DNA of 28,309 bases from a virus. The position numbers and the translations under genes were made by a program. A model generated the notes under the pieces. The model made no database searches, was not told the origin of the DNA, and saw only the letters and a program-made list of their open reading frames with translations. Position 1 is the first letter of the stretch. Each line of letters opens with the position of its first letter. The stretch lies in IMG/VR virus record IMGVR_UViG_3300030109_004998, positions 1 through 28,309 of that record. One strand, written 5' to 3'. This document shows positions 1,889 through 11,325 of this stretch, in pieces.

Positions 1889-2491
1889 ATGAATAAAAAA
1901 TTATTAGTAGATGTAAGACCATTTGAAATTTCTCGTCAGAAAATTGATGAGAGTATTAAAGAAAACGCTGGTCGTTTAATAGTAAAGGGTGTACTACAAA
2001 GAGCCGAATCTAAAAATCAAAATGGTCGAGTTTACCCACGAGAAGTATTATTGAAAGAAGTTTCTAAATATTTAGAAGAACAAGTTAGTGAGAGACGAGC
2101 ACTCGGAGAACTCGACCATCCAGAATCATCTGTAGTTAATTTAAACAATGCGTCACATAATGTTATTGAAATGCATTGGGATGGCGATGACCTTTTAGGA
2201 ACTGTAGAAGTTCTATCCACACCAAGTGGAAATATATTAAAAGAACTATTTAAATCAGGTATTAAACTTGGTATTTCATCAAGAGGATTAGGTTCAGTAG
2301 AACCTGTAAATGAAAAGAATGGTGAAGATGGAACTGTTGAGGTTCAACCAGATTTCGAACTTATTGCTTTTGATTTCGTATCTAATCCATCTACACATGG
2401 TGCTTTTATGAGACCTGTCAATGAGGGTGTAGAAAAACAAAAACCTGAAACAAGAATCGAATCTATTATCAACTCTATAATGAGGGGATAA
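1889..2491 (+). CDS. gp21: Prohead core protein protease (gp21-like serine protease)
   Basis: A 200-residue protein matching the T4 gp21 prohead protease family in length and motifs. Catalytic candidates are His77 in the motif GELDHP, Ser130/Ser131 in LGISSRGLG and Asp162 in AFDFVSNPS, corresponding to the His-Ser-Asp triad of T4 gp21. NQNGRVYP near residue 47 is another family hallmark. In T4 this enzyme sits in the prohead core and cuts scaffold, capsid and internal proteins after (L/I)-x-E before DNA packaging, then destroys itself. Matching sites are visible in this window: Ile60-Ser-Glu62 in the major capsid protein and Leu5-Lys-Glu7 in the scaffold. Its gene lies four bases after the previous stop and is followed closely by a basic multi-module gene. 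Confidence 0.92.
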   Translation: MNKKLLVDVRPFEISRQKIDESIKENAGRLIVKGVLQRAESKNQNGRVYPREVLLKEVSKYLEEQVSERRALGELDHPESSVVNLNNASHNVIEMHWDGDDLLGTVEVLSTPSGNILKELFKSGIKLGISSRGLGSVEPVNEKNGEDGTVEVQPDFELIAFDFVSNPSTHGAFMRPVNEGVEKQKPETRIESIINSIMRG

Positions 2492-2494
2492 TCG

Positions 2495-4114
2495 ATGCCG
2501 TCTGTATCTAAAAAACAACAGAAGTTTATGGGTATAGTACGGTCTATCCAAAAGGGTGAACAACCTGCTGGTAAATTTTCCAAAGCTGCTCAAGACGCTG
2601 CTAAAAAGATGAAGAAGAGTAGTGTGAAAAAATATGCTAAAACCAAACACGATGATTTACCTGTCAAAAAAGAGTCTCTATCAAAATCACAAATTAAAAA
2701 GATGAGAGATGAGTTTGATAAAACAGGTGAACTACCACCTCATTTAAAAAAGATATCAAAAGCCAAAAAAGAATTTGAGAAAAAATTCAAAGTAAAGGAT
2801 GTCGAGATACCTGGTTTAGAGTGGATGAGTAAGTTAGGTGAGGCTGCTGATAGAGATTATAAGGCAGAATACAAAAAATTTCAATCATCAACAAAAGCTA
2901 AAAAATACAGAGCCGAGTTGAATAAATACAACCGACAAAAAGGCACTTATGGGAATGGAGATGGAAAAGACGCTTCTCATAAGGGAGGAAAAATCGTGGG
3001 GTTTGAGAAAGAATCAACAAACAGAGGACGAGCTGAAAAGAGTCGATTAAAAAAAGAAGATATCAGACAAGAGATAGAAGAATATGTTGATAACATTTTA
3101 GAAGATTTATGTTTGTGTGAGGCTTGTCAAAAAGGATATATGACTCATCCAACTCGTAAGACAAAAATCATGTTTGGTAAAAGATACAGAAATTGTATTA
3201 AGAAAGAGGATGTGAATGAAGCCGTATACAAACTCAAACGAGGTAGCACCAATAAAGACTTGGATGAACTCGATGCTTTACTGGCTAGAGCTGGATTTAA
3301 GGGAAAACCTGATTTTAACAAAATGACCTGGTCAATAAAAAATAAAAATCCAAAGATAGCAAAAATCATAAAGAGTAAAGGTGGGAAGAAAATTAAAGAA
3401 TCTGTGGATGAAGCTGTATCAGCAAAAGGTTGGAATATGTCTAAAAAGTTTATTCCAATTCTTGGCAGAGAGGTAAAAAATTTAGTTAAATATCACAGAC
3501 AACAAAATGAAGAAGATTTTCTTGAAGTTGCGAATTATATGGAATTGCAATTAAAGTATATGAAAAAGAATTTAAATGAATCCATTGAAGAAGCTGATTT
3601 AGGACTTACATATAAAAAAGGTAAAACAGTAAAAGTCAAACACAAAACATCTGGAAAAAGTCTTGTCATTATAGACAAACCAGTCGTAAGAAAAGAATAT
3701 GAAAAAATAGGATTTTTTGCTGAAGGAACCTGTGGATATGGTATAGATGGGAAGATTGGTGAAGAACCAGCAGGTCCTAATTTGATGAAAAAAATTAAAA
3801 AAATATCCAAAGATAAAGAAAAGAAAAAAATATTAAAATCTAAGAAAGAAGCTGTAATTAAAGTTTCTAAAAAAGATGATGTACCTGGCAACGCTATGAA
3901 GATGAGTGGTGAGGAAAAGATTAAAAAATTAACATATAGTGGAAGTAATGGAAAGGGAAGTTATGAAATCAAAGGAAAAAATTTAAATGTCATTGGTATA
4001 AGACCAAGAGACAAAGGGTTTTTCGTAAGACATTTTACGATGAAAACTGGATTTAGAAAAGCTAATTTATACTATGATGGTGTAAATTTTATGGATAAAA
4101 ACAAAAAGTTCTAG
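2495..4114 (+). CDS. Multi-module basic protein with DUF3008-like N-terminus
   Basis: A 539-residue, lysine-rich protein with ribosome site AGGGGATA just before the ATG. It reads as a string of short modules. Residues 1-60 (VSKKQQKFMGIVRSIQKGE) resemble the DUF3008 family of small phage proteins. Residues 62-90 hold KMRDEFDKTGELPPHLKKI. Residues 120-180 hold a conserved-looking NRQKGTYGNGDGKDASHKGG followed by ESTNRGR. Residues 206-234 carry Cys206, Cys208, Cys211 and Cys234, ending in FGKRYRNCIKKE, a possible small metal site. Residues 243-300 and 350-539 hold further unrelated blocks. Several modules look like those recurring in structural proteins of marine phages, from memory and not checked. 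It may be an internal head protein; function is unknown. Confidence 0.6.
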   Translation: MPSVSKKQQKFMGIVRSIQKGEQPAGKFSKAAQDAAKKMKKSSVKKYAKTKHDDLPVKKESLSKSQIKKMRDEFDKTGELPPHLKKISKAKKEFEKKFKVKDVEIPGLEWMSKLGEAADRDYKAEYKKFQSSTKAKKYRAELNKYNRQKGTYGNGDGKDASHKGGKIVGFEKESTNRGRAEKSRLKKEDIRQEIEEYVDNILEDLCLCEACQKGYMTHPTRKTKIMFGKRYRNCIKKEDVNEAVYKLKRGSTNKDLDELDALLARAGFKGKPDFNKMTWSIKNKNPKIAKIIKSKGGKKIKESVDEAVSAKGWNMSKKFIPILGREVKNLVKYHRQQNEEDFLEVANYMELQLKYMKKNLNESIEEADLGLTYKKGKTVKVKHKTSGKSLVIIDKPVVRKEYEKIGFFAEGTCGYGIDGKIGEEPAGPNLMKKIKKISKDKEKKKILKSKKEAVIKVSKKDDVPGNAMKMSGEEKIKKLTYSGSNGKGSYEIKGKNLNVIGIRPRDKGFFVRHFTMKTGFRKANLYYDGVNFMDKNKKF

Positions 4115-4124
4115 GAGATAGGTT

Positions 4125-4451
4125 ATGGCTGAAGTAAAGAAAAGTATTTTAGATACACCTGAAATGCACATTCAAGATCAAAAACATCAAATCAATACAG
4201 AGTTGATTGAGATAATTAAATTTAGACAAAACAAAAAATGGTTAATTAGCATTGTTGTTGTTTCACTATTTGCCACAATATTAGGACTTATGATTTGGTT
4301 TATGAGTAGTGGTGTTGATGTCATGGGTGGTTGGAAGGAGATTCTACTACTGATGTTAGGTGGATTCGTTGGTTCGTTTGCCAAAGTGATTGACTTTTGG
4401 TTCAATAATGCCGAAGATGATGTAAAACTTTTAGAACATGCGGATGATTAA
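4125..4451 (+). CDS. Two-TM holin-like membrane protein
   Basis: A 108-residue protein with a polar N-terminus, a first hydrophobic helix at about residues 39-60 (ISIVVVSLFATILGLMIWFM), a short loop and a second helix at about 72-92 (EILLLMLGGFVGSFAKVIDF), then an acidic tail. The ending with FAKVIDFWFNN is common in small phage inner-membrane proteins near lysis genes. It lies directly before a second, GTA-holin-like gene. Together they could be a holin pair or holin and regulator controlling lysis timing in the inner membrane. No endolysin is recognised in the window. The membrane nature is seen directly; the lysis role is inferred. Confidence 0.6.
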   Translation: MAEVKKSILDTPEMHIQDQKHQINTELIEIIKFRQNKKWLISIVVVSLFATILGLMIWFMSSGVDVMGGWKEILLLMLGGFVGSFAKVIDFWFNNAEDDVKLLEHADD

Positions 4452-4462
4452 GGAGTAAGGTT

Positions 4463-4876
4463 ATGAGTTTTTTAGCAACATTAGGAAAGGCCGCTGGTAG
4501 TTTACTTGGTGGTGACGCGATTAAAGACATCGGAAATATTGTAGATGACCTACATACTTCAGGTGAGGAGAAGGAAGAAGCGAAACAAAAGATTACACAG
4601 ATATTAGCACAAGCCGAACAAGCGGCTCAAGCTCAAGTATCTGCTCGTTGGGAAGCCGATTTAAAACACGGTAGTTGGTTAAGTAAAAATATTAGACCAA
4701 TTACATTAATATTTCTTACTGCAGTATTTGTTATACTAAGTGTATTTGATGGAAACATGGGTGAATTTACAATAGGTGAGGCATATGTGCCTGTTTATCA
4801 AACTCTGTTAATGACTGTGTATGCTGCTTACTTTGCTGGTCGTTCAATTGAAAAAGTCAAGAAGGTAACTAAATAA
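4463..4876 (+). CDS. GTA-type holin (3TM holin family-like)
   Basis: A 137-residue protein with ribosome site AGGAG before the ATG. It begins with a glycine-rich helix (GKAAGSLLGGDAI), then an acidic and amphipathic helical segment (residues 33-68, rich in E, K, A and Q). The diagnostic block is SWLSKNIRPITLIFLT, leading into a hydrophobic helix at about 78-96 and another at about 110-127 with YAAYFAGRSIEK. This arrangement matches the gene-transfer-agent release holin family, in which the W-x-x-x-x-R-P motif precedes membrane helices. The expected role is permeabilising the inner membrane at lysis. It overlaps the next gene as TAATG. Family assignment is from recognised motifs. Confidence 0.75.
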   Translation: MSFLATLGKAAGSLLGGDAIKDIGNIVDDLHTSGEEKEEAKQKITQILAQAEQAAQAQVSARWEADLKHGSWLSKNIRPITLIFLTAVFVILSVFDGNMGEFTIGEAYVPVYQTLLMTVYAAYFAGRSIEKVKKVTK

Positions 4877-5659: not shown

Positions 5660-6898
5660 ATGAAAGACCAAATTACATATAACGGAAAAAAATACAAAAG
5701 AGTTGACGAGGATAAAACTTTAAAAGAGTTTATGCGAGACACACCTACTGATGCAGCTGAAAAACAAAAATTAAAAAATCCGAAGAACGGTAAAGAAGTT
5801 ACAGTTAGGTCTATAATGAATCAAGGTACAAGGAAATATCCATCTGCATTAGTTAAAAAAGCAAACGCAATATACAAGAAAGCTTTGGAAAAGGAACAAA
5901 AAGCCAGAAATAAGTTTCATAAAGACAGAACCAAAAAGTATAGTTTCAGAGGTGATAAAAAAGAAGGTGTAAGTGAAAGTCTTGATAGACGAGTAACTGT
6001 AAAAGAAGTTCGCTCTTGGTTAAAAAAATTAGAAGAGTTTCGTTATAGAAAAATAAGAAATGTTGATGCTAGAAGAGTTACTTCTTTTATCAATAGTAAT
6101 TTAAGTGAAACAGATTTACCTAATTCTTTACAGAAGAAGTGGGAACACGCCAAATACGGTAGAGAAAAACATTTGGCAGACAAATTCATCAAAGAAAAAA
6201 TTAGTCAGAAGTGGAGCGAGATTGCTCAAAATGAGGGTGTTGAAATGAAAAATATTAGTTTATTAGGAATAGTAGAAGACCTTGTGCCAGTTAAGGAACG
6301 AGAGCAAGGGGTAAACAAGTTCGAGGTCATTGAGGCTGTAAAAAACTATCAGATGATAGGTGGACAACTTTTCAAAGACAATGGTATTATTGAAGTTGCT
6401 AAACAACTTGTTGGTATTGCCGAATCTGCTCAAAATCATGTACTAAGTGAAACCGATGATTGGTTTGATTCTGTTTCTGTTAAAAGAAATATGAAAGAGT
6501 TAAAAGGTTTAACAGGTCAATTTAAAAAAGCTGCTCTTGAAGCCAATGCCGTAAACGAAAGATTAAGTGCTTTATATGAAGACATGGGACATATTTTAAA
6601 TAGATACTATGATATTGAGGAAGCTATGGATCCTGTTGGTAAAGAAGATGATGATGTCGATAACGATGGTGATGTTGATGATAGTGATAGATACTTAAAG
6701 AAAAGAAGAGATGCTATTTCTAAAAATATCAAAAAAGAAGAAGTTGATACTAAAAGTATCGATGATAGAATATCAAAAAATGTAGAAAAAATAAATAAAT
6801 TGAAAGAAAAAAGACCAGTGCCAACTAACGATGTTGCTAGATTAGTAGGTCTGAATAACGCACTTAGAGATAAAAAGAAAAAATTACAGAAAAAGTAA
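5660..6898 (+). CDS. Helical protein with EF-hand-like calcium loop, probable virion protein
   Basis: A 412-residue charged protein. Residues 1-100 form a basic module with TLKEFMRDTPTDAAEKQ, VRSIMNQGTRKYPSALVKKA and KARNKFHKDRTKKYSF. Residues 105-325 are helical. Residues 332-343 (DVDNDGDVDDSD) place Asp at loop positions 1, 3, 5, 7, 9 and 12, a textbook EF-hand or dockerin-type calcium loop; it is followed by RYLKKRRDAI. The C-terminus is a lysine-rich coiled coil. I recall DNDGDVD-x-SD-x-YL modules from marine T4-like virion proteins, which would fit a structural role. Reaction unknown. The ATG at 5660 lacks a visible ribosome site, so the start is uncertain. Confidence 0.55.
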   Translation: MKDQITYNGKKYKRVDEDKTLKEFMRDTPTDAAEKQKLKNPKNGKEVTVRSIMNQGTRKYPSALVKKANAIYKKALEKEQKARNKFHKDRTKKYSFRGDKKEGVSESLDRRVTVKEVRSWLKKLEEFRYRKIRNVDARRVTSFINSNLSETDLPNSLQKKWEHAKYGREKHLADKFIKEKISQKWSEIAQNEGVEMKNISLLGIVEDLVPVKEREQGVNKFEVIEAVKNYQMIGGQLFKDNGIIEVAKQLVGIAESAQNHVLSETDDWFDSVSVKRNMKELKGLTGQFKKAALEANAVNERLSALYEDMGHILNRYYDIEEAMDPVGKEDDDVDNDGDVDDSDRYLKKRRDAISKNIKKEEVDTKSIDDRISKNVEKINKLKEKRPVPTNDVARLVGLNNALRDKKKKLQKK

Positions 6899-6904
6899 AA
6901 GTAA

Positions 6905-7201
6905 GTGGCTGAACAATTTGTATTTTATTCACTTTTTTTATGGCAAATCGGTTTTATCATAGGAATATTATTAAAGTTATTTTACAAACCAAGTGGGAAA
7001 AAATTTGTATCAACTGTTGTGTCAAACACACCAGCAGTTGAGGTGGAGACACCAAAATCAAAACCTAGTCACATTGATGTTGAAATGAAAAAAAACATAT
7101 CATTACAGAAAGCTAAGGTGTCATCTGTAAAATCAGATGAAGTGATTAGGGGTAAAGTGTCAACACAAAAAGAAAAACTTAAACAACTTAGAAGAGGTTA
7201 A
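6905..7201 (+). CDS. Small N-terminally anchored membrane protein
   Basis: A 98-residue protein starting at a GTG six bases after the previous stop, with a weak purine stretch before it. Residues 4-28 (FVFYSLFLWQIGFIIGILLK) form one hydrophobic helix followed by basic residues, so the protein is anchored in the inner membrane with a cytoplasmic or periplasmic tail of about 70 residues. The tail is polar and lysine-rich and ends KEKLKQLRRG, similar to the KLDKLRKLRRGN end of the unrelated gene at 13080. It lies two bases before the actin-like gene, so it could be its membrane partner; this is speculation from position. Confidence 0.5.
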   Translation: MAEQFVFYSLFLWQIGFIIGILLKLFYKPSGKKFVSTVVSNTPAVEVETPKSKPSHIDVEMKKNISLQKAKVSSVKSDEVIRGKVSTQKEKLKQLRRG

Positions 7202-7203
7202 AG

Positions 7204-8223
7204 ATGGCCAAAGGGTTAGATTGTGGAACATCATTTTATATTGCTGCTACAGAGGATGTAGTAAAAAAACAACGAAATGCATTCTTAACTGTCGATGGGG
7301 AGGTGAACCAAGTCAAGAGAATGTTAAAACGACAAGGAATTCCCTTTGTCGAAAAAGCTGGTAAAATACACATTGTAGGACAACACGCTTTTAACTACGC
7401 TCAAATATTCTCTACAGCAGAACTTAAACGACCTATGAAAAGTGGTTTACTAAATCCGACTGAAAAAGATTCTTTGCCGGTATTGAATGCTATAATTGGT
7501 GAGTTACTTGGGGATGCTAAAGATGGGGAAACTTGTGTATATTGTGTTCCGTCAAAACCAATTGATGTTCAACGAGAAGTATCATATCACGAAGATGTAT
7601 TGAGAACGATAATAGAACAATACGGGTATTCCGTAAAAAAGATAGAGGAGGCAGTTGCCATTGGATACGAAGGTTTAGTTGATACTCAACTAACAGGTGT
7701 AGCCATTTCAATGGGAGCTGGAATGTGTAACATAGCCGTTATGTATCAAGGGATGACTGCCCTATCTTTTAGTGTAAGTCGTGGCGGTGATTGGGTTGAT
7801 GAAAATGTATCTATGGATACAGGTGTATCAAAAGCTAAGGTAACTAACATCAAAGAAACATCAACTACACTTGATTTATCTTCTGCTACTTATCAAAATA
7901 TTTATGAAGAAGAGACAGATGAGGCTAATGTACTTATTGCTATTCGTTCTTATTATGGTGCCCTAATAAATTATCTTTTAACTAATTTAAAAGTTCAGTT
8001 TGAAGGTGTTGAAAATGTTCCTAACTTTCCTAATGCTGTTCCTATCGTTATCGGTGGTGGAACTTCATTGGTAAAAGGATTCTTGGATGTGTTTAACGAA
8101 CAATTTGACCAAGATGAGTTTCCAATACCTATATCAGAAATTATACACATAGAGGATGCTCATACAGCAGTTGCTAGAGGATGTTTATCTGAAGCTCAAC
8201 TAATAGAAGAAGATGACGAATAA
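7204..8223 (+). CDS. Actin/MreB-like ATPase (ASKHA superfamily)
   Basis: A 339-residue protein, close to the length of MreB, with the actin-fold motifs in order. Phosphate-1 is GLDCGTS (residues 4-10). Connect-1 is KIEEAVAIGYEG (146-157). Phosphate-2 is AISMGAGMCNIAV (167-179), where the usual first Asp of D-x-G-x-G is Ser169. SRGGDWVDE (192-200) matches the MreB/Hsp70 GGD segment. The adenosine motif is VIGGGTSLVKG (282-292) and Connect-2 is EDAHTAVARGCL. The family binds ATP and most members form filaments. The altered phosphate-2 residue may lower hydrolysis. A strong AGAGG site precedes the ATG. It lies among late genes between an anchored protein and bS21. Possible roles are intracellular positioning or assembly scaffolding; plasmid-type segregation is less likely here. 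Confidence 0.85.
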   Translation: MAKGLDCGTSFYIAATEDVVKKQRNAFLTVDGEVNQVKRMLKRQGIPFVEKAGKIHIVGQHAFNYAQIFSTAELKRPMKSGLLNPTEKDSLPVLNAIIGELLGDAKDGETCVYCVPSKPIDVQREVSYHEDVLRTIIEQYGYSVKKIEEAVAIGYEGLVDTQLTGVAISMGAGMCNIAVMYQGMTALSFSVSRGGDWVDENVSMDTGVSKAKVTNIKETSTTLDLSSATYQNIYEEETDEANVLIAIRSYYGALINYLLTNLKVQFEGVENVPNFPNAVPIVIGGGTSLVKGFLDVFNEQFDQDEFPIPISEIIHIEDAHTAVARGCLSEAQLIEEDDE

Positions 8224-8242
8224 CAAAAAAAAAGGTTTTAAT

Positions 8243-8470
8243 ATGTTTGAAAAGAAAAGAAAAAAGAAAAAACAATCGTCTATACTTTATGTAGATGCTA
8301 CAAATAAAAGTTACGAAAGAGCAATATCGGAATTCAAGAGAAAAGTAAAAAATTCTAACTTACTTAAAGAGTTAAGAGAAAGGGAATTCTACCAAAAACC
8401 ATCTGCTGCTAGACGAGAAAAAAGAAAACAGAGATTGATAAAAATAAAATCTCTTCGTCTAAATGATTAG
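8243..8470 (+). CDS. rpsU: Phage-encoded 30S ribosomal protein bS21
   Basis: A 75-residue basic protein with the bS21 pattern throughout: ILYVDATNKSYERAISEFKR, then LKELREREFYQKPSAARREK and a basic tail. E. coli bS21 has the equivalent REFYEKP. The ATG at 8243 is chosen over one at 8213, which overlaps the upstream gene, because AAAGG lies 7 bases before it and host bS21 proteins begin near this point. bS21 binds the 30S platform near the anti-Shine-Dalgarno region and helps initiation on structured messages. Phage copies are known from marine phages and may replace or supplement host S21 to favour late phage messages. The gene ends at a non-coding gap before the scaffold gene. Confidence 0.92.
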   Translation: MFEKKRKKKKQSSILYVDATNKSYERAISEFKRKVKNSNLLKELREREFYQKPSAARREKRKQRLIKIKSLRLND

Positions 8471-8600: not shown

Positions 8601-9695
8601 ATGTCTGATTTATTAAAAGAAGCTATCGCTGATGCTAAAGCTGTTCGTGAAACTGCTCTACAAAATGCTAAAATGGCTCTTGAAGAAGCATTCACTCCAC
8701 ATCTAAAATCTATGCTTTCTGCTAAACTTGCGGAAGAAGACCTTGAAGAAGATGAAGATTTTCAAGAAGGTATGCACGATGACGAAGATGAAGAAGAAGA
8801 AGAAACTGATGAAGGTATGGGTATGAAACCTCGTAGAGATGACGATGATGATGAAGATCCTGATGAAGGTATGCACGACAAACCTCGCAGAGAAGATGAC
8901 GATGATGAAGAAGAAGTCGATGAATCTGAAATCGTTGAAATCGATGGTGTGAAGTATGCTCCAATTCAAGATGTTGAAGAAGGTATGCATGACGAAGACG
9001 ATCCTCGTAGAGAAGATGACGATGACGAAGATATGGATGAGTCTGAAGAGTTAGATCTTGAAGCAGTAATCAAAGAGCTTGAAGAAGAGTTAGAAGAAGC
9101 TGGTGATCCTGGTGACGAAGAAGAATCTGTTAACGAAGAAGAAATAACTGAAGGTCCTGATGACGAAGAAGAAAAAGTTGACGAAGAAATCGTTAACGAA
9201 GAAGACGAAGAAGACCTTGAAGAACAATCTACTTCATCTGGAATCGGTAAAGGTTCCGGAGTAAAACAGCCTTCTGCTGGTGACGAGGAAGATCCTGGTA
9301 AAGGTAAAACTCACGAACAAGTTAATAAGCTAAGTAATGAGCTTAATGAATATAAGGAAGCTGTTGTCTATTTAAAAGACAAGCTTCATGAAGTTAACAT
9401 CCTTAATGCTAAACTTCTATACACTAACAAACTTTTCAAAGAGTTTGTATTGAGTAACGATCAAAAGTTAAAAATTGTTGAGACTTTTGATAGAGCTCAA
9501 ACAACTCGTGAAATCAAGTTGGTTTACTCTACACTTGCTGAGTCTTATAAAGACAATGGTGGTGAGAGAAAAGAAGTTGTTAAGGAATCGTATGCTAGTA
9601 AGAAATCTGGTGGAACTGCACCTAAGACTAAAATCATTAGTGAGGAAAGTCAAGTTGCAAACCGTTTCAGAAAACTTGCTGGTATTAAATCTTAA
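8601..9695 (+). CDS. gp22: Prohead scaffolding protein (gp22-like)
   Basis: A 364-residue, extremely acidic protein directly before the major capsid gene, the T4 gene 22 position. Residues 1-45 form an amphipathic helix opening MSDLLKEAIADAK, with an L-x-E site at residues 5-7. Residues 46-215 are runs of D and E with internal repeats (EGMHD, PRREDDDD). Residues 245-320 carry the conserved scaffold block: a coiled coil, then LLYTNKLFKEFVLSNDQKLK and VYSTLAESY. In T4 this protein forms the prohead core that shapes the capsid and is digested by gp21; many L-x-E sites fit that fate. It is larger than T4 gp22 because of the acidic insertion. It ends 25 bases before gp23 and both share one message up to the terminator. 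Confidence 0.88.
   Translation: MSDLLKEAIADAKAVRETALQNAKMALEEAFTPHLKSMLSAKLAEEDLEEDEDFQEGMHDDEDEEEEETDEGMGMKPRRDDDDDEDPDEGMHDKPRREDDDDEEEVDESEIVEIDGVKYAPIQDVEEGMHDEDDPRREDDDDEDMDESEELDLEAVIKELEEELEEAGDPGDEEESVNEEEITEGPDDEEEKVDEEIVNEEDEEDLEEQSTSSGIGKGSGVKQPSAGDEEDPGKGKTHEQVNKLSNELNEYKEAVVYLKDKLHEVNILNAKLLYTNKLFKEFVLSNDQKLKIVETFDRAQTTREIKLVYSTLAESYKDNGGERKEVVKESYASKKSGGTAPKTKIISEESQVANRFRKLAGIKS
8766..9035 (+). repeat. Degenerate acidic repeats inside the scaffold gene
   Basis: Four imperfect copies of a module of the form EGM-x-x, PRR, then E/D-rich run occur at residues 56-60 (EGMHD only), 71-84 (EGMGMKPRRDDDDD), 89-102 (EGMHDKPRREDDDD) and 127-142 (EGMHDEDDPRREDDDD). The underlying DNA is rich in GATGACGA-type units. 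They may have arisen by slippage or duplication and supply acidic peptides after proteolysis. Confidence 0.7.
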
Positions 9696-9720: not shown

Positions 9721-11325
9721 ATGAGCGATTATATAAACGAAGGTCTTCTGAATTCTGCTTCCCCTATTAAGAAGCAAAAAGATGAGGCCGCTAAGCTCGT
9801 TACTAAGTGGGAACAATCTGGACTTTTAGAAGGAATGGATAATGAGTGGCAACGCTCTGGTATGGCTACATTGTTAGAAAACCAGGCACGTCAGTTAATA
9901 TCTGAGAATTCTAAAACTTCACCTAACGCCGGTGCTGGTGTTGGTGATGAAGAATGGTCTGGAGTTGCTCTTCCACTTGTAAGACGAGTATTTGGAAACA
10001 TCGTTGCGCAGGAACTTGTTTCTGTTCAACCAATGAACTTACCTTCTGGACTAGTTTTCTATCTTGATTTCAAGTATGGATCAAGTCAAAATAAGTTCAC
10101 TTCCGGTGGTTCAATTCACGGAAAAACAGGTCCTAACTCACCTTCTGGTTCATCTGCTCCTTTTGGAACAGATACAGATGGTCTTTACGGAGCTGGTAAG
10201 TATGGGTATTCAGTTAGTTCATCAACTGTCGCCGTATCTTCAACTGCAGTTTCTGTAGCTACTTTTAAAGAAATTGACTTTAATAGTGAAGATTCAGCAT
10301 CACTTGGTAACAATTTGTTTAAAGTTACTATTGCGAAAAGTAACTTTTCAAAAGCTGATTACAAAGCTCTTAGGGCTTGGGATATAACAGCTACTGATGC
10401 TACAGTTTTATCTCAGTACACTAAAGAAGATGGCGCTAATGTAACATTTATTGTGTCTGCTTCTAATGCTAATGATGCTAGTGGATCTTATAATGTTGAT
10501 TTACTACATGCAAACACTGCTACTGACAGAGGTGATTTTGAAGATAGAACTGGTAATGCTACTCAAGATACTCTAAGTATACCTGAAGTTAACCTTGAAA
10601 TGAGGTCTTTACCAATCGTTGCTAAGACTCGTAAGTTGAAAGCTGTTTGGTCACCTGAGCTTGCTCAAGACTTAAACGCTTATCACTCTGTTGATGCAGA
10701 AGCTGAATTAACATCTATGTTAAGTGATTACATCTCAATGGAAATTGATTTGGAAATTCTTGATATGTTGATTTCAGATGCTGTGACAGAAGAATACTGG
10801 TCAGCAAAAGCTGGTGAGGATTTTGATTCTGCTACTAATCTTTTCGTATCTAATGTCTTTTATGGCACTAGATTTGAGTGGTATCAGACTCTAGTTTCTA
10901 AGATTCAAAAAGTATCTAACGAAATTCATCGTTTGACACTTCGTGGTGGTGCTAACTTTGTAGTTGTTGCTCCAAAAGTTGCTACTATCCTTGAATCACT
11001 TCCTGGCTATGTAAGTCAGCCTGGTGACGGTGGAAATGACCAATTTGGTATGGGTATTTCTAAAGTCGGTCAAGCTGCTGGTAGATATACTGTCTACAAG
11101 AATCCTTACATGACTGAAAATTCAATCTTGGTTGGATTTAGAGGAAGTAACTTCCTAGAAACTGGTGCTGTATATAGTCCTTACGTTCCGTTAATTACAA
11201 CTCCATTGGTATACGATCCTAGTGATTTTACACCAAGAAAAGGTGTGATGACTCGTTACGCTAAGAAGATGATTCGTCCAGAGTTCTATGGTTTGATACA
11301 TTGTAAGTCACTTGACTTAGTGTAA
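9721..11325 (+). CDS. gp23: Major capsid protein (gp23-like)
   Basis: A 534-residue protein, close to T4 gp23 (521), placed after the scaffold. An N-terminal propeptide is expected: the segment ARQLISENSK contains Ile60-Ser-Glu62, an (I/L)-x-E cut site at almost the T4 position (Glu65). Following it are GDEEWSGVALPLVRRVFGNI and VSVQPMNLPSG, hallmarks of the T4-like HK97-fold capsid start, and later LVGFRGSNFLETGAVYSPYVPL near the end. An S/T/A-rich insertion spans about residues 155-285. It assembles as hexamers (and perhaps pentamers, as no gp24 homologue is in the window) on the scaffold core. GGAG lies before the ATG; a strong terminator follows the stop. Confidence 0.95.
   Translation: MSDYINEGLLNSASPIKKQKDEAAKLVTKWEQSGLLEGMDNEWQRSGMATLLENQARQLISENSKTSPNAGAGVGDEEWSGVALPLVRRVFGNIVAQELVSVQPMNLPSGLVFYLDFKYGSSQNKFTSGGSIHGKTGPNSPSGSSAPFGTDTDGLYGAGKYGYSVSSSTVAVSSTAVSVATFKEIDFNSEDSASLGNNLFKVTIAKSNFSKADYKALRAWDITATDATVLSQYTKEDGANVTFIVSASNANDASGSYNVDLLHANTATDRGDFEDRTGNATQDTLSIPEVNLEMRSLPIVAKTRKLKAVWSPELAQDLNAYHSVDAEAELTSMLSDYISMEIDLEILDMLISDAVTEEYWSAKAGEDFDSATNLFVSNVFYGTRFEWYQTLVSKIQKVSNEIHRLTLRGGANFVVVAPKVATILESLPGYVSQPGDGGNDQFGMGISKVGQAAGRYTVYKNPYMTENSILVGFRGSNFLETGAVYSPYVPLITTPLVYDPSDFTPRKGVMTRYAKKMIRPEFYGLIHCKSLDLV

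Follow-up and report, generated by a model that had tools for sequence, protein, structure and literature searches.

The open reading frame at positions 7,204 to 8,223 of a stretch of viral DNA (IMG/VR record IMGVR_UViG_3300030109_004998, 28,309 nucleotides, hereafter the window) was found to encode what is almost certainly a member of the volactin family of actin-like proteins (PF25216). The product is an actin-fold nucleotide-binding protein. It belongs to a phage-borne branch of a known family of actins; this branch has a partner of its own, and its noncanonical phosphate-2 (P2) loop is characteristic of the whole family. As far as the literature searched shows, phage volactin is undescribed, though the Pfam model already recognizes it: the words "phage" and "virus" do not occur in the main volactin paper (PMC10869688), and neither the titles nor the opening lines of the abstracts of the other volactin papers mention phages. 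The features of the window on which the analysis depends are collected in Table 1.

Table 1. Features of the window in order of position, with the basis of each assignment
Feature	Position	Strand	Basis
gp21 prohead protease	1889..2491	+	PF03420, 6e-32
Possible holin	4463..4876	+	GTA_holin_3TM PF11351, 3.4e-4, below curated cut-off; same gene run
Small bitopic membrane protein, 98 aa, putative actin anchor	6905..7201	+	hydropathy, synteny
AGAGG, Shine-Dalgarno-like	7193..7197	+	sequence; inside last membrane-protein codons, 6 nt before actin ATG
Volactin-family actin-like protein, 339 aa	7204..8223	+	PF25216 match, AF2 model and Foldseek, 194 phage relatives
Phosphate-1 loop GLDCGT, residues 4-9, Asp6 invariant	7213..7230	+	alignment of phage relatives
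Glu149 codon (= MamK E143 / MreB catalytic Glu), invariant	7648..7650	+	alignment
Phosphate-2 loop GVAISMGAGMCN, residues 165-176	7696..7731	+	family signature S-x-G-[AGS]-G-M-x-N
Ser169 codon (= MamK Asp161)	7708..7710	+	Ser in 194/194 phage relatives
Adenosine motif GGGTS, residues 284-288	8053..8067	+	alignment
Ribosomal protein bS21, start may be 8243	8213..8470	+	PF01165, 5.9e-11
Acidic scaffold-like protein, gp22 position	8601..9695	+	position and composition
gp23 major capsid protein	9721..11325	+	PF07068, 2.3e-76

Family, fold and relatives

The Pfam volactin model matched residues 1-331 of the protein with an E-value of 1e-71 and a score of 242.5 bits against a curated cut-off of 35, and all 321 positions of the profile were covered. 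Haloferax volcanii likewise lies above this cut-off. The MreB_Mbl model gave an E-value of only 2.6e-7. Membership of MreB was rejected with scores of 18.5-24.3 bits against NCBIfam equivalog and subfamily cut-offs of 293-515, as was membership of MamK (23.8 bits against 400) and of FtsA, for which the NCBIfam cut-off was missed by a wide margin. An AlphaFold (AF2) model, computed with 68 relatives as input (pLDDT 88.9, pTM 0.87), was found to have an MreB-type actin fold, and its top Foldseek matches were MreB and MamK, with E-values of about 1e-13 and a TM-score of up to 0.71 for the MamK filament structure. MamK was also the closest solved structure in a profile search of the PDB (4.6e-13). 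The fold, the four-subdomain layout, and a weak Pfam match are shared with MreB, but the identity in the Foldseek alignment is about 17% and the phage protein lacks the P2 aspartate.

An earlier note, made from the sequence of the window, had described the gene product as an MreB/actin-like protein with five actin motifs in order. The motifs are all present, and the actin fold was confirmed by the Pfam match and by the structure prediction that the note had proposed as a check. The picture of a generic MreB or actin with one odd residue did not survive, since in the volactin family the serine is the rule. Membership of a well-described virion family, which the note had named as a finding against its reading, was rejected, as no PHROG matched the protein at E ≤ 0.01. 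BFVD contained no close viral structural relative, the best being gp506 of Bacillus phage G at 14% identity.

The namesake of the family, VolA (HVO_2015), is a conserved actin homologue of H. volcanii; its filaments are dynamic and membrane-bound, and it influences cell shape and the rod-to-disk transition (PMC10869688). The phage protein resembles VolA in its full-length family match, in its length, and in the S-x-G-A-G-M-x-N form of the P2 loop found in family members. It differs in that it is encoded by a phage within a late structural region, has a clade-specific membrane partner, and belongs to a separate deep clade. By analogy, the phage volactin most likely polymerizes; family membership alone is no proof of polymerization.

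At least 126 close relatives of the phage volactin were found in IMG/VR. The phage sequences fall into three clades, A (which includes the window), B, and C, each of which is monophyletic, with 27-38% identity between clades. The two clades other than A are found in huge phages, one centered on LR745208 (485 kb) and the other on LR756511 (595 kb). The archaeal volactins form another clade; they were found on plasmids of Natrinema and Haloarcula and in numerous genomes of haloarchaea and Archaeoglobaceae. A bacterial set groups with them in a tree whose deep joins are weakly supported and whose long branches were flagged. Identity between the phage volactin and the archaeal and bacterial members is 33-39%. 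Within the clade of the window, dN/dS is about 0.02-0.11, and the phage volactin is under strong purifying selection. The number of relatives, the low dN/dS, and the serine discussed below together show that the open reading frame is no chance match.

The phosphate-2 loop

The P2 residue of the usual actins is a Mg-coordinating aspartate. Residue 169 of the phage protein, within GVAISMGAGMCNIAV, is a serine, as the earlier note had pointed out, and in the profile alignment it corresponds to D161 of MamK, while Glu149 corresponds to MamK E143. Serine was found at this position in all 194 phage relatives, drawn from the three clades. Met174, which stands in place of the P2 threonine of MreB and MamK, and Asn176, which replaces the next acidic residue, are invariant in the same 194 proteins, so that the Asp161/Thr/Asp of MamK is Ser/Met/Asn in the volactins; Asp6 and Glu149 are kept throughout. 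The MreB P2 motif D-[ILV]-G-G-G-T is not matched by the SMGAGM that is invariant in clade A. The serine also occurs in each of the 115 full-length volactins from archaea and bacteria that were examined (SFGAGMTN or SFGAGMVN); here, the genome scan used a pattern containing the serine and yielded a biased set. The IMG/VR search for clade A used peptide patterns without residue 169, which leaves that clade unbiased, and the unbiased support for the serine comes from this search and from an HMM-based search. Because Ser169 is invariant across the phage and the archaeal and bacterial proteins, S-x-G-[AGS]-G-M-x-N is a volactin signature that the phages share with the archaeal members.

All six serine codons are used at position 169 among the phages, and TCN and AGY codons both occur within clades B and C. 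Switches between TCN and AGY normally proceed via non-serine codons, and this usage therefore points to strong selection for the serine. The codon usage, together with the conservation in 194 of 194 proteins, rules out a private mutation or a sequencing error: the survey of homologues suggested in the earlier note returned no restored aspartate.

Intein-like, in-frame insertions of about 370 aa, beginning with Cys and ending in ...HN^C, were observed in volactins of clades B and C (L201:5369-7504; L109:6001-~8208; L113/L114:6001-~8085). The three insertion sites are all conserved and lie in the P2 loop (GISC^GAGM), after the P2 asparagine (GMTN^CAL), and at SVGR^CGDW. Locus L201 comes from a record classed as a Neisseriaceae MAG, yet the genes around it match clade-C huge phages. 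Haloarchaea also carry large paralogues of ~800-1200 aa (L326 and other loci of L318-L331) with a volactin-like domain and a degenerate P2 (VVLGTGTSE, CIGSQTTS, or CLGHGHTS); in L326 a long coiled coil comes after the domain, and the protein has a hydrophobic segment at its C-terminus. These paralogues are possibly inactive actin partners.

The earlier note had suggested slow or absent ATP hydrolysis. The D161A mutant of MamK forms static filaments that have lost their dynamics (PMC5059902), and, as Ser169 corresponds to this residue, altered nucleotide turnover in the volactins is plausible by analogy. The further step of taking Ser169 as evidence of a dead ATPase fails because VolA filaments elongate and depolymerize in vivo (PMC10869688) and the haloarchaeal volactins share the serine. 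It was found in every haloarchaeal volactin proper that was examined, the nearest to H. volcanii being that of Halorubrum, which also belongs to the Haloferacaceae.

The same residues bear on an alternative reading in which the changed P2 (Ser, Met, Asn) abolishes hydrolysis and the protein is a nucleotide-locked, nonpolymerizing scaffold or chaperone of actin fold that serves head assembly, or acts at the membrane, in monomeric or static oligomeric form. The MamK mutant, the replacement of the MreB/MamK threonine by Met174, and the adjoining gp22 and gp23 genes would all be consistent with such a protein. We nevertheless consider it unlikely, since the haloarchaeal volactins, the family of the dynamic VolA, have the same P2 signature, since the invariance of Glu149 and Asp6 is that expected of an active site still under selection, and since the three intein-like insertions at or near the P2 loop and the GGDW motif occupy sites of a kind that is typically functionally constrained.

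The membrane partner and the gene neighborhood

The gene directly upstream of the volactin encodes a protein whose single N-terminal hydrophobic helix (hydropathy peak 2.17) is a transmembrane segment containing LWQIGF and whose basic cytoplasmic tail ends in KVSTQKEKLKQLRRG. A homologue was found upstream of the volactin in 69 of the 71 clade-A loci with room for it. When the search was made with the membrane protein alone, all 30 relatives retrieved were directly upstream of a volactin, and LWQI in the transmembrane segment and a C-terminal DEVxKGKVKTQKxKLKxLR tail were conserved. An AGAGG is present in the last codons of the upstream gene, whose end is at 7201, so the membrane protein and the actin are probably translationally coupled. 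No recognizable transmembrane partner was found directly upstream of the volactin in clades B and C, and membrane tethering would therefore be clade-specific at most.

Of the 71 clade-A loci with enough flanking sequence, 68 have bS21 after the volactin, and the gp22-like gene and gp23 each follow in all 47 loci long enough to show them. All five genes are on one strand, and the order membrane protein, volactin, bS21, gp22, gp23 is nearly fixed in clade A. The anchored small protein on one side and bS21 on the other were thus correctly read in the earlier note, as was the late structural region of a T4-like phage, which is borne out by gp21, gp22, and gp23. Its placement of the gene amid virion and lysis genes fits as well, with a weak holin-like match on the lysis side. 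Between gp21 and the volactin module are a 539-aa Lys-rich protein (2495-4114) and two small membrane proteins, one of them holin-like (4125-4876), and this is an unusual place for lysis-type genes in T4-like phages. The 412-aa protein at 5660-6898 has a DxDxDG-type loop (DVDNDGDVDDSD), matches several unknown PHROGs, and has a homologue in 75 of 80 clade-A loci.

In clade-C huge phages, the volactin and gp23 are on the same contigs, about 24-47 kb apart, and a sheath-like gene lies about 8-23 kb from the volactin in three records of clade B. Almost all neighbors of the huge-phage volactins are unknown by PHROG and Pfam.

The gp23 comparison covered 37 relatives that had a volactin match or 4 kb or more of upstream sequence; 8 of them carry a volactin, and their capsid proteins are at least 55% identical to that of the window. 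No volactin was found in any of the 29 capsid loci outside this group (at least 4 kb upstream; capsids 51-56% identical). Volactin therefore does not belong to the core assembly machinery of T4-like phages, and its confinement to these relatives indicates that a single lineage acquired or retained the module. The nearest isolated phages, Mel-JY01, immuto, and RM378, have no actin in the same slot, and the 388-aa ORF of Mel-JY01 gave no actin by Pfam either. By capsid protein (53%), Microcystis phage Mel-JY01 is the closest isolated relative; its bS21 lies between the protease and gp22 (L195:9152-9379), so that bS21 occupies this slot also without a volactin.

The T4 late promoter TATAAATA gave 6 matches in the window against 4.3 expected, all on the opposite strand, and was rejected as proof of late timing. 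Given this lack of enrichment and the strand of the matches, the phage may use another late-promoter consensus. Scans for sigma-70 promoters and terminators gave results at chance level. In Bacteroidetes phages, bS21 and the structural genes are coexpressed late (PMC9723584). From the gene position and this precedent, we infer that the phage volactin would be expressed late with the virion proteins.

Possible functions of the phage volactin

We would give about an even chance to a late-made, filament-forming, membrane-tethered volactin that organizes virion assembly or the cell interior. The protein would be made together with the virion proteins and, as its family suggests, would form filaments like those of VolA. 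The membrane partner, with a short outer N-terminus and a basic inner tail, would tether the filaments, or else their nuclei, to the inner membrane. Nucleotide turnover, if any, would be carried out by a P2 loop with a serine for the usual aspartate. The filaments might give spatial order to virion assembly, for instance by placing procapsids or the sites of assembly in the way that MamK positions magnetosomes, or might instead hold the cell shape until lysis. The conserved position directly upstream of the scaffold and capsid genes fits a structural role (filament, positioning, or shape), though the adjacency to capsid genes is guilt by association.

Several bacterial volactins (L203, L204, L216, L219, and L268; Patescibacteria, Desulfobacterales, Acidobacteria, and Omnitrophica MAGs) are in gas-vesicle-bearing genomes. 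The volactin of L203 adjoins GvpL/F and GvpG, GvpA is about 7 kb from the volactin on the G004 contig, and the L204 volactin is flanked by DnaK, ArsA-like ATPase, and Hsp20 genes as well. This proximity to gas-vesicle genes might lend some weight to the MamK positioning analogy.

The membrane-anchored partner, the MreB/MamK-type fold, the possible holin gene in the same run, and the effect of VolA on cell shape (PMC10869688) could also be accommodated by an effector of the host cytoskeleton that copolymerizes with or poisons host MreB, or that reshapes the host or arrests its division late. This appears quite unlikely, because the low identity to MreB makes copolymerization unlikely, the family is found in phages of very different size with probably different hosts, and the gene is fixed beside capsid genes and not among early takeover genes. 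A filament for DNA segregation or replication positioning is distinctly improbable. Phage-encoded actins with such a role are known, as in the prophage actin AlpC of CGP3 (PMC4446434), and MamK and ParM both form dynamic filaments; but AlpC and the ParM-like proteins transport DNA or serve replication with DNA adaptors and belong to another family and gene context. No ParR- or AlpA-like adaptor was found among the neighbors by Pfam or PHROG, which small adaptors may escape, and the partner is a membrane protein. The gene lies in the late region of a T4-like phage that shows no trace of plasmid maintenance, and the families nearest to its product are volactin, MamK, and MreB rather than ParM. 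A virion structural protein with an incidental actin fold would suit the fixed location upstream of gp22 and gp23, but is very improbable given full-length homologues in haloarchaea and Archaeoglobaceae and the absence of the gene from close capsid relatives and from the capsid regions of Mel-JY01 and immuto.

The late, membrane-tethered filament remains the preferred reading. A volactin gene next to those of a small membrane protein and the capsid suggests that this group of marine T4-like phages may build a small cytoskeleton during particle assembly. More tentatively, and with considerable doubt, marine T4-like phages and several huge-phage lineages could build a volactin cytoskeleton at the host membrane that positions virion assembly and works on a P2 without aspartate, as an actin-based counterpart of the PhuZ spindle; volactins generally, in gas-vesicle clusters, phages, and haloarchaea, may organize large protein cargo inside cells. 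The comparison with PhuZ of jumbo phages is an analogy between phage-encoded cytoskeletal proteins, since PhuZ has a tubulin fold and volactin an actin fold, and no PhuZ-type tubulin was matched in 12 long volactin-bearing records.

What makes the finding interesting is the phage module together with the family-wide change in P2, and no private oddity is involved. Volactin, studied until now in haloarchaea, would extend to abundant marine phages and to huge phages. The invariant P2 serine in phages, archaea, and bacteria raises the question of how nucleotide turnover proceeds without the aspartate that other actins need, and the two-gene module of membrane protein and actin offers a handle on whether phages use an actin filament in virion assembly.
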